Position numbers and translations under genes: made by a program. The notes under the pieces were generated by a model. It saw only the letters and a list, made by a program, of their open reading frames with translations. It had not been told where the DNA came from and did not search any database. From Gammaproteobacteria bacterium (lineage in GTDB: Bacteria > Pseudomonadota > Gammaproteobacteria > Steroidobacterales > Steroidobacteraceae), in NCBI GenBank assembly GCA_015655465.1, contig JAATEY010000302.1, positions 1 to 37,407 of the forward strand: 37,407 bases of DNA, in the 5' to 3' direction. This document shows, piece by piece, positions 11,100-14,908 of this stretch (position 1 is its first letter; each line of letters starts with the position of its first letter).

Positions 11100-11894
11100 T
11101 CAGAAATTCTCGTCCGGACGCAGGTAACGCCACTTGCCCACCGGCAGACCACCTAGCGGCACATTGCCGCTGCGCACGCGCTTCAGCCCGGTGACATACA
11201 GACCGACCAGCTCGCACATGCGGCGGATCTGGCGCTTGCGTCCCTCGCGCAGCACGAAGCGCAATTGATCGTCGTTCTGCCATGACACCTGTGCCGGTTT
11301 GAGCACGACGCCATCGAGCATCAGCCCATGCTGCAGCCGCTTCATGCCATCGTCCGAAAGTCTTCCCTCGACGCGCACCAGATACTCTTTCTCGATCGCG
11401 GAGTTCTCGCCGATCAGCTGCCTGGCGACGCGCCCGTCCTGCGTGAGCACCAGCAGCCCGGTCGAGTTGATGTCCAGTCTTCCGGCAGGTGCGAGTCCGC
11501 GCAGGTGGACGCTCTGGAACCGCGTGGGTGATGGATCGGCAGACCAGCGGTTTTCCGGGCGGATCAGCACCACGGCTGGTTCATGGCCGTCTTCGGCCTG
11601 CCCCGACACATAGCCCACCGGTTTGTGCAGCAGGATAGTCACCTGCGTGCTCTGGTGGTCCCGCGCCGCCCGGTCGATTTCGATATGCGCCTGGGGCGAG
11701 ACCCGCACGCCCAGTGTGTCGACAACCTTGCCGTCGACCTTCACCCACCCGTTCTCGATCCAGCGGTCAGCCTCGCGGCGCGAACACAGGCCGAGCTCGC
11801 CCATCCGCTTGGAGAGTCGTGGATTTTCCGGGTTGTCATGCTGCACCGCCACCTCCGGATCATACCTGTCCTTAGGCTTGCAGGACTTTCGCAT
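11100..11894 (-). CDS. RsuA/RluF-type pseudouridine synthase
   Basis: S4-like RLSKRMGELGLCSRREADRWIENGWVKVDGK; catalytic region GRLDINSTGLLVLTQDGRVA; KEYLVRV; LREGRKRQIRRMCELVG. Likely start ATG at 11894 (tracked ORF extends to 11984). Confidence 0.93.
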   Translation of the reverse strand: MRKSCKPKDRYDPEVAVQHDNPENPRLSKRMGELGLCSRREADRWIENGWVKVDGKVVDTLGVRVSPQAHIEIDRAARDHQSTQVTILLHKPVGYVSGQAEDGHEPAVVLIRPENRWSADPSPTRFQSVHLRGLAPAGRLDINSTGLLVLTQDGRVARQLIGENSAIEKEYLVRVEGRLSDDGMKRLQHGLMLDGVVLKPAQVSWQNDDQLRFVLREGRKRQIRRMCELVGLYVTGLKRVRSGNVPLGGLPVGKWRYLRPDENF

Positions 11895-11914
11895 CCCGGC
11901 GTAGGATTCAGCAC

Positions 11915-11971
11915 ATGAAGCGCATGCACATGACGATTCTGGTACTGACCACCACGAGGTGGACTGCCTGA
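11915..11971 (+). CDS. Putative 18-aa leader peptide MKRMHMTILVLTTTRWTA
   Basis: Short ORF absent from the ORF track; AGGA at 11903-11906 sits 8 nt upstream of ATG; 5 of 18 residues are Thr plus Ile, Val and two Leu; its stop overlaps the first of a series of alternative hairpins preceding a terminator. Confidence 0.55.
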   Translation: MKRMHMTILVLTTTRWTA

Positions 11972-12020
11972 TCGTGTGCGACATCCAGGCAGCTCGTTGA
12001 AACGCGATGCCTGCCGACTG

Positions 12021-12054
12021 AAGACCCCGGAAGGCTCGCCAACCGGGGTTTTTT
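12021..12054 (+). terminator. Intrinsic terminator/attenuator hairpin upstream of GNAT gene
   Basis: aagaccccgg-aaggctcgccaa-ccggggtttttt: 10-bp stem (one G-U), T6 tract ending one base before ATG at 12055; GGGG at 12045-12048 is also the only SD-like sequence for that ATG. Confidence 0.75.
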
Positions 12055-12658: not shown

Positions 12659-12672
12659 CTGCCTGCAGGCAG
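12659..12672. promoter_or_regulatory. 14-bp perfect palindrome with a nearby half-site copy
   Basis: ctgcctgcaggcag (12659-12672); ctgcctgca recurs at 12687-12695, just upstream of the triple-NTF2 gene. Confidence 0.35.
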
Positions 12673-12727
12673 TTGATTCTGCCCACCTGCCTGCAAGAAG
12701 AATACGGAAATGCACAGGAGAGTGCCG

Positions 12728-14908
12728 ATGACGCGCCCGCTCGCCCCGATTTGCGCAATGCTTGCCCTGTTGCTCGCCACGTCCGTCCACGCCGATACCG
12801 CACTCGATGGCTTCGCCCGCGATGTCGAGCGCACCGAAAGCGTTCGCGCGGTCAAGAAGCTGCAGGCGAGCTATGCGCAATACGCGCAATATGGCCTGTG
12901 GAGCCAGGTCGGCGCGCTGTTCGCCACCGATGGCAGCTTCGTCTTCGACGGCATGATCAAGCCGGCCGAGACCGCGAAGGGCCCCGTCGCAATCGCCTCC
13001 TTCCTCCGCACCCGCTACGGCGGCGGCCATGAAGGTGTGAAGGCAGACGATCTCTCGTCGATGATGATCGATGCGCCGGTGCTGAATCTCGCGGCCGATG
13101 GCGGCAGCGCCAAGGTCCGCTGGCAGGCCATCATCTTCCATGGCCACGGCGACAAGGCACGCATCGAGGGCGGTGTCTTCGAGAACGACTATGTGCGCCA
13201 GGCCGGCGTCTGGAAGATCGCGACGGCGCACTATTTCCCGCAGTACGACGGCCCCTATGAAGACGGCTGGATCAACTGGGGCGGTGGCGACCTGCCCGTG
13301 GTCCCCAAACATTTCGATCCCACCACCGCCGGCATCCCCATTGCGCCCGCGACCGGCACTGCTCCCGCGACGAAGGCGACGCTGGCGGCGTTGCAGAAGC
13401 GGGTCGATACGCTCAACGACGAAGACCGCGTCCGCAACCTGCAGTCGGCCTACGGCTACTATGCGGACCGCAAGATGTGGGACGACGTGGTCGACCTGTT
13501 CGCGAAGAACGGTGTGGTCGAGATTGGCGGACAGGGCATCTGGCGCGGACCAGCGGGCGTGCGCCGCTGGCTGGAGAGCATCGGCTCTGCCGGACTCAGG
13601 CATGGCCAGCTCAATGACCGCCTGCAGAATGATGTGACCGTGACCATCGCGCCGGGCGGCAACGAGGCATTTGCGCGCGGCATCGAACTCGGCATGCTCG
13701 GCGAGGCGGATCAGGAGAAGGGCTGGTGGGAGGTCGCCACCTTCCATACACGCTTCGTCAAGGAAGACGGCGTGTGGAAGATCCGCGAACTGCGCCGCTT
13801 TCCGCTGATGAAGACCGACATCTTCCAGGGCTGGGGCAGGAGCCGCATCGTCGATGCGGTGCCGGCCGGTGCCAATGCGCCGGATGCGCCGGTTCCCGCT
13901 GCAGATGCTGCTGCGCCGGGCCTGACGATGCCGGCCTTCCTCGGCGTGCATCCGGTCACCGGCAAGGCCGTCAAGGCGGCTGGCAGCGCAAAAATGGTGG
14001 CGACCGGCGTGCTGACTGGCGCGATCGCAGCGGGCAAGTCCACGCCGGTCACGCTCGACGAAGCCCGCCGCCGTCTCGCGCGTTCCGCCGCCTGGGATGG
14101 CGCCACGAATGTGTCGGCGGCCTATGGCTACTATGTCGACGATTCCGACAATGCCGGCTGGGCCAATGTCATGGCGTCGAAGGGATTCAAGGAGACGCCA
14201 TTCCAGGGCTATCACATCGGCCGCGACCGGCTCATCGCCGCGCGCGTGCGGGGCCCGGGCCCGGAAAAGCAGGCCGGCATTTCGTATCACTGGCTGATAC
14301 AGCCCGTGGTGCTGGTCTCCGAAGATGGCCGTTCCTCAACGGGCCGCTTCAAGCTGTTCCAGCCGCGCACCGGCAAGACGGTGGGCAAGGCGGGCGACTT
14401 CTTCGCCGCCGCGTTCTGGGGCGGCATGTATAACGACCGCTATGTGCTGGAGGATGGCGTGTGGCGCATCTGGGAGCTGACGCTCGACGAGCCCTACATC
14501 ACGCCGGTGGCGTGGAAGGATGGCGTCTGGGCGAAGGCGAAGGATCCGGCTCCCCGCACTCCCGCTCCCCGCGCTGCTGCACCGGCACCGGCTGCACCAG
14601 TCGCACAAGGCGCAGCCGCCGCAGCCGCACCCGCACCCAGGCCAGCTGCCGCCGGCAACGCGGCCGTAGATGTCACGCTGGCGTCAATTGGCAAGCGCGA
14701 AGAGCATTTCCAGGGTGGGACGGGTGAGCAATGGCAATGGCCGACCATCCTGCCCATGTGGTTCACCTACACCAATCCGGTGAGCGGGCGCGTGCCCGAA
14801 CTGCACCAGCCGGATTGCGTGCCCTGCGCGCTGCGCCCCGAGTTGCGGCTCGATCGCAATGGCTACCAGGAGCCGCCGGATGCGCCGGCTGCAAACAAGT
14901 CACCCTGA
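12728..14908 (+). CDS. Exported protein with three SnoaL/NTF2-like domains
   Basis: Signal peptide MTRPLAPICAMLALLLATSVHA; three successive domains beginning AVKKLQASYAQYAQYGLWSQVGALFATDG, VRNLQSAYGYYADRKMWDDVVDLFAKNG, VSAAYGYYVDDSDNAGWANVMASKG; Ala/Pro-rich linker before the C-terminal tail. Confidence 0.85.
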   Translation: MTRPLAPICAMLALLLATSVHADTALDGFARDVERTESVRAVKKLQASYAQYAQYGLWSQVGALFATDGSFVFDGMIKPAETAKGPVAIASFLRTRYGGGHEGVKADDLSSMMIDAPVLNLAADGGSAKVRWQAIIFHGHGDKARIEGGVFENDYVRQAGVWKIATAHYFPQYDGPYEDGWINWGGGDLPVVPKHFDPTTAGIPIAPATGTAPATKATLAALQKRVDTLNDEDRVRNLQSAYGYYADRKMWDDVVDLFAKNGVVEIGGQGIWRGPAGVRRWLESIGSAGLRHGQLNDRLQNDVTVTIAPGGNEAFARGIELGMLGEADQEKGWWEVATFHTRFVKEDGVWKIRELRRFPLMKTDIFQGWGRSRIVDAVPAGANAPDAPVPAADAAAPGLTMPAFLGVHPVTGKAVKAAGSAKMVATGVLTGAIAAGKSTPVTLDEARRRLARSAAWDGATNVSAAYGYYVDDSDNAGWANVMASKGFKETPFQGYHIGRDRLIAARVRGPGPEKQAGISYHWLIQPVVLVSEDGRSSTGRFKLFQPRTGKTVGKAGDFFAAAFWGGMYNDRYVLEDGVWRIWELTLDEPYITPVAWKDGVWAKAKDPAPRTPAPRAAAPAPAAPVAQGAAAAAAPAPRPAAAGNAAVDVTLASIGKREEHFQGGTGEQWQWPTILPMWFTYTNPVSGRVPELHQPDCVPCALRPELRLDRNGYQEPPDAPAANKSP

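Follow-up and report, generated by a model that had tools for sequence, protein, structure and literature searches.

Leaders in which a ribosome on a short ORF decides whether RNA polymerase enters the gene behind it belong to a well-known type of switch. The thr operon leader joins a short Thr-rich leader ORF, with some Ile, to an intrinsic terminator ahead of the gene. In the his operon attenuator of enteric bacteria the stems B:C and D:E let the polymerase read on, E:F makes it stop, and untranslated RNA defaults to the stop; its off state comprises three stems, terminator included, and its on state two bridging stems (PMC4046918). In ermK-type attenuators, stalling of the ribosome in the leader ORF leads to an antiterminator ahead of a single enzyme gene (PMC5418344), and in Sinorhizobium meliloti the trpL leader RNA starts at the very ATG of its leader ORF (PMC7298713).

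The leader described here lies in the window (the whole stretch of 37,407 nucleotides analysed) and is composed of an 18-codon ORF, the alternative stems 1:2 and 2:3, and an intrinsic terminator abutting the start codon of a GNAT acetyltransferase gene (Table 1). Judged from its sequence and from that of its relatives, it is probably a ribosome-mediated transcription attenuator of narrow distribution controlling this YhhY-like GNAT; despite the familiar type of switch, this copy and its gene are not yet catalogued. The leader shares with the his attenuator the three-stem off state and the two-stem on state, but it lacks a run of control codons and serves a single acetyltransferase gene; moreover, its stem 0 excludes 1:2 by crossing it rather than by sharing an arm, and its antiterminator takes the loop of the terminator. 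Thr-rich ORF, some Ile and terminator are found in the thr operon leader as well, whereas the window leader has no Rfam match, its five Thr codons do not form a run and its gene is not biosynthetic. Antitermination upon stalling in a leader ORF, ahead of a single enzyme gene, is proposed for the window as it is known for ermK-type systems, although the examples found of the latter come from Bacillus and Streptococcus and concern macrolide genes, and the window leader has no link to a drug; finally, an RNA start at the ATG of the ORF, as in trpL, is only predicted for the window leader, which differs from trpL in sequence, gene and, presumably, signal.

Anatomy of the leader and of the gene behind it

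Table 1. Features of the leader and the adjoining gene, in positions of the window
Feature	Position	Strand	Remarks
-35-like hexamer TTGCAG	11878..11883	+	weak consensus match; TTG at the same place in G044 and G311, 17-18 nt ahead of the -10-like hexamer
-10-like hexamer TAGGAT	11902..11907	+	TAGGAT in G044, TAGCAT in G311, 9-10 nt ahead of their leader ATG
Leader ORF MKRMHMTILVLTTTRWTA	ATG 11915 to TGA 11971	+	G044 retains start, frame and stop although a 3-nt indel separates the two; predicted, probably leaderless
Stem 0, 5' arm CGCATGC	11921..11927	+	pairs with 11974-11980
Small hairpin CCACC/GGTGG within the leader ORF	11949..11962	+	also in G044, with a larger loop and invariant pairs
Segment 1 CTGCCTG	11964..11970	+	overlaps the stop codon of the leader ORF
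Inner pairs of 1:2, TCG/CGA	11972-74/11979-81	+	
Stem 0, 3' arm GTGTGCG	11974..11980	+	pairs with 11921-11927
Segment 2 CAGGCAG	11986..11992	+	partner is segment 1 or segment 3
Segment 3 GCGATGCCTG	12004..12013	+	partner is segment 2 or segment 4
TGCCTG of segment 3	12008-12013	+	inner TCG/CGA of 2:3 at 11994-96/12005-07
Intrinsic terminator	12021..12054	+	AAGACCCCGG (12021-12030) with CCGGGGTTTT (12043-12052); T run 12049-12054
Segment 4 AGGCTCGC	12032..12039	+	in the terminator loop; pairs with GCGA-U-GCCT 12004-12012 (antiterminator 3:4)
GNAT acetyltransferase, 165 aa	12055..12552	+	PF00583 E 1.3e-18; PA1377 E 4.7e-40; NF007527 166 bits

All the coordinates given by an earlier, sequence-only reading of this DNA proved correct when checked against the sequence. 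Counted in nt from the ATG, stem 0 occupies 7-13/60-66, 1:2 50-56/72-78, 2:3 72-77/94-99, 3:4 90-98/118-125 and the terminator 107-116/129-138. The 142-nt leader RNA folds better than 200/200 dinucleotide shuffles (z -3.45), and 0.7% of shuffles contain a 6-mer that, like segment 2, has pairing partners on either side. The T run of the terminator touches the GNAT ATG, and the gene has no Shine-Dalgarno-like sequence ahead of it other than the GGGG in the 3' arm of the terminator. Since the gene upstream of the leader, a pseudouridine synthase, is divergent, the terminator can act solely on the leader transcript; the upstream gene is also divergent in the related genomes G044 and G025. The Rfam covariance search of the leader yielded no match at the gathering score and no riboswitch; up to E 5, leader families were likewise absent.

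The AGGA at 11903-11906, formerly read as the Shine-Dalgarno sequence of the leader ORF, is probably something else; indeed, it sits inside the -10-like TAGGAT, and the AGCA found at the same site in G311 (a genome of another family of the same order) suits a -10 element rather than a Shine-Dalgarno sequence. The arrangement is TTGCAG-18-TAGGAT-7-ATG in the window, TTGTCC-18-TAGGAT-9-ATG in G044 and TTGCGC-17-TAGCAT-10-ATG in G311. Because the AGGA belongs to a conserved -10-like hexamer placed 7 nt before the ATG, the leader ORF is probably leaderless, and transcription would start at or close to its ATG. The hexamers are weak and were not reported by a scan for consensus promoter patterns, the case for them being their conserved place.

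The gene after the leader encodes a GNAT acetyltransferase, as the sequence-only reading had it, with a match to PF00583. The best family by far is YhhY (PRK10140; NF007527), with a score of 166 bits that stays below the curated equivalog cut-off of 236, so that the protein is to be regarded as a relative of YhhY and not as its named equivalent. The protein also lies close to PA1377. YhhY itself acetylates amino acids, Phe and Met among them; the literature collection searched contained no paper on YhhY substrates.

Relatives of the leader and their genomic company

Among the 98 related genomes searched, leader DNA was found in G044 (77% identity) and G025; with the exception of a short match in pepA, the carriers in the family are 3 of 217 genomes, namely the window's own and these two. 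A covariance search for homologous leaders, proposed as a check together with the original reading, was run with a model built from the three leaders and did add a further one, in G311; the homology is complete only in part, as G025 and G311 share just the 3' portion. G044 keeps the start, frame and stop of the leader ORF, which overlies the first switch segment; in G025 the ORF is gone and the GNAT gene carries an in-frame TGA, gene and leader ORF having decayed together; in G311 segments 1 and 2 are absent or fall inside a 2-N assembly gap, and the ORF is not seen. The complete leaders are two, those of the window and G044, both from draft genomes. In G025 (L004 and L048) a single in-frame TGA is what breaks the gene, and the terminator and the 3:4 arms have hardly diverged from those of G044; in G311 the true length of the two N (L018, 1563-1564) decides between a leader ORF fused in frame to GNAT and a stop codon overlapping the GNAT ATG.

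The terminator is kept in G044, G025 and G311. In each of these three genomes the leader is followed by a GNAT gene of the type seen in the window, and the encoded protein shares 50-61% identity with that of the window. The divergent neighbour is leuA in G044 and G025 and not leuA in the window, so that leader and GNAT stay together in different surroundings. Identity at the DNA level amounts to 74% for the leader versus 63% for GNAT; when G044 is compared with G311, the 3:4/terminator part is 75% alike and GNAT 61%.

The narrow distribution makes the reach of the finding modest. GNATs of the window type occur in 7 of 396 genomes of the order, and the regions upstream of relatives outside the leader-bearing group (G261, G288, G067, G080 and nine class-level loci) are devoid of the leader. 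A scan of a genome collection with a 20-nt core returned the G025 and G044 records and three matches in Hymenobacter and Rhizobium; nothing was found in the viral contigs searched, nor by a GNAT protein scan of the genome contig collection. A wider leader family was considered and rejected, since the inspected covariance hits in the order and class proved, G311 excepted, to be coding sequence or ordinary terminators, such as that of a transporter gene at L073. Among the GNAT relatives, the hairpin preceding L059 terminates an upstream gene on the same strand. The leader was also rejected as a copy of a biosynthetic leader of the same genome (82% complete), in which a search with the leader model revealed no further copy. 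The leader sequence GAGGTGGACTGCCTGATCGT is nearly identical to the beginning of pepA in G130 (L009 1501-1527) and G126 (L030), which belong to the same genus; there it encodes LEVDCLIV. Despite this 25/27-nt match, an origin of the leader from the 5' part of pepA was rejected, since in the window's genome, G044 and G025 pepA codes for something else at this place and the match is probably due to chance.

Alternative stems and the proposed switch

The sequence-only reading had overlooked the stem 3:4, in which the terminator loop pairs with segment 3. It comprises 11 perfect bp in G044 and 8 bp with a bulged U in the window, the difference being one whole pair missing from both arms and one half-pair lost. 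When the upstream sequence was shuffled, the same complementarity was obtained in 0/1000 cases for G044, 0.1% for G025, 0.8% for G311 and 19% for the window, the four sequences being related and hence not independent tests; from the window alone, 3:4 is not remarkable. This antiterminator crosses the terminator helix; its pairing is weaker in the window than in G044, G025 and G311, where it is strong. A further stem, named stem 0, pairs leader codons with the sequence past the stop codon and crosses 1:2; between the window and G044 it keeps 7/7 pairs, 4 of which have varied (three on one side, one on both sides). In shuffles of the ORF columns, a test set up after the stem had been seen, a conserved helix of at least 7 pairs arose in 9%, one with a double change in 1.2%, and one with equal variation in 1/5000. 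The stems 1:2 and 2:3 hardly vary, so that their conservation carries little information.

Two crossings, of stem 0 with 1:2 and of 3:4 with the terminator, sort the stems into two exclusive sets, {stem 0, 2:3, terminator} and {1:2, 3:4}. Crossing of the terminator by 3:4 largely resolves the original caveat that the exclusion is not textbook. The full-length fold without a ribosome is stem 0, 2:3 and the terminator. At equilibrium the terminator of the window always wins (P at least 0.98), and the choice must therefore be kinetic, made before the terminator completes. Folding of the RNA left uncovered by a ribosome, with the 3' arm of the terminator still missing, gave 1:2 and 3:4 for a ribosome on any of window codons 3-13; once it stood on codon 14 or later, up to the stop codon, 2:3 formed instead. 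Folding of G044 counts against the model, since 3:4 prevails there over 2:3 even for a ribosome that has reached the stop codon.

According to the proposed mechanism, in RNA free of ribosomes stem 0 would lock segment 1, 2:3 would form and transcription would stop; a ribosome reaching the stop codon would cover segment 1, again allowing 2:3 to form and transcription to stop. A ribosome slowed at about codons 4-12 would open stem 0 and let 1:2 form, whereupon segment 3 may capture the terminator loop (3:4) and RNA polymerase would read into GNAT. The initial proposal of an attenuator-like leader ahead of GNAT is supported by a terminator that has no other transcript to act on, by the company of leader and GNAT elsewhere and by the alternative stems that are kept, some of them with paired changes. 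It is possible, albeit doubtful, that the leader represents a novel family in which a leaderless leader ORF would sense slowing of the ribosome by his-type logic and so control an amino-acid (or drug) acetyltransferase, with a terminator that also hides the gene's only ribosome-binding sequence, a single hairpin blocking both transcription and translation. If the attenuator reading holds, leader-peptide attenuation would not be confined to biosynthetic operons but would also serve a single gene for a YhhY-like acetyltransferase, the inducer would hint at the substrate of the GNAT, and another probable leaderless leader ORF would stand beside the rhizobial case.

Signal and other readings of the locus

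Two leader peptides are intact, MKRMHMTILVLTTTRWTA in the window and MNRAFTTIMQLATFTRWTA in G044. They agree in the final five sense codons, a stretch that is, however, part of the paired region; outside the paired 3' end seven codons differ, all of them changing the amino acid and none silent, one codon is inserted, and T7, I8, L11 and one ACC Thr codon are common to both, each peptide counting five Thr. The Thr/branched-chain control codons suggested earlier thus gain no support from conservation, and sensing of these amino acids is unproven because the peptide is not conserved; nor does the likeness to an amino-acid biosynthetic leader extend to the downstream gene, a GNAT which does not make the amino acid. 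Given a real switch, a ribosome slowed by shortage of Thr, Ile or Leu, the amino acids of the shared codons, may serve as a tentative first guess.

The divergence of the peptides would also be expected of an ermK-like sensor of general ribosome slow-down, and the same switch might answer to a ribosome-targeting inhibitor or to general slowing of translation, with the GNAT inactivating that compound or a related amine. The conservation of ORF and stems, but not of the peptide, fits such a sensor without codon specificity, and leader-ORF attenuators do control drug resistance genes, acetyltransferases included (PMC5418344); this explanation is nonetheless unlikely, as the best GNAT family is YhhY and not a resistance family, there is no sign of a drug as substrate, and the five Thr codons of each leader are left unexplained.

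Control without a ribosome, in which a protein, a metabolite or a translation-level switch would act on 3:4 and the terminator hairpin, with the ORF being incidental, is quite unlikely. What is kept in all four genomes is indeed 3:4 with the terminator, whose GGGG is the sole Shine-Dalgarno-like sequence for GNAT and would be hidden in the hairpin, and the leader ORF is missing in G025 and not seen in G311; however, the lost ORF of G025 is no argument, its GNAT being broken, while G044 preserves start, frame and stop across a 3-nt indel, stem 0 ties the ORF to the switch, and no Rfam riboswitch matches. Absence of any regulation, with a plain terminator shielding GNAT from stray transcription and with an ORF and repeats that arose by chance in GC-rich DNA, would agree with the narrow distribution (3/217 family genomes), with the frequency of short ORFs and GC-rich hairpins in such DNA and with a terminator scan that finds chance sites at the expected rate, but is very improbable in view of the paired variation of stem 0, of leader DNA better conserved than GNAT and, between G044 and G311, of a 3:4/terminator part that likewise exceeds GNAT in identity.

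Two minor observations concern the DNA past the GNAT gene. The single chain of a 732-aa protein encoded at 12710-14908 of the window, adjoining an NMT1-type binding protein, contains three SnoaL_4 stretches; no NCBIfam family covers it as a whole. Between GNAT and the next gene lies a perfect palindrome, CTGCCTGCAGGCAG (12659-12672), in which the leader motif CTGCCTG/CAGGCAG recurs. It is flanked by GGTGG and CCACC, as well as by a second TGCCTG, and is on the list of the terminator scan.
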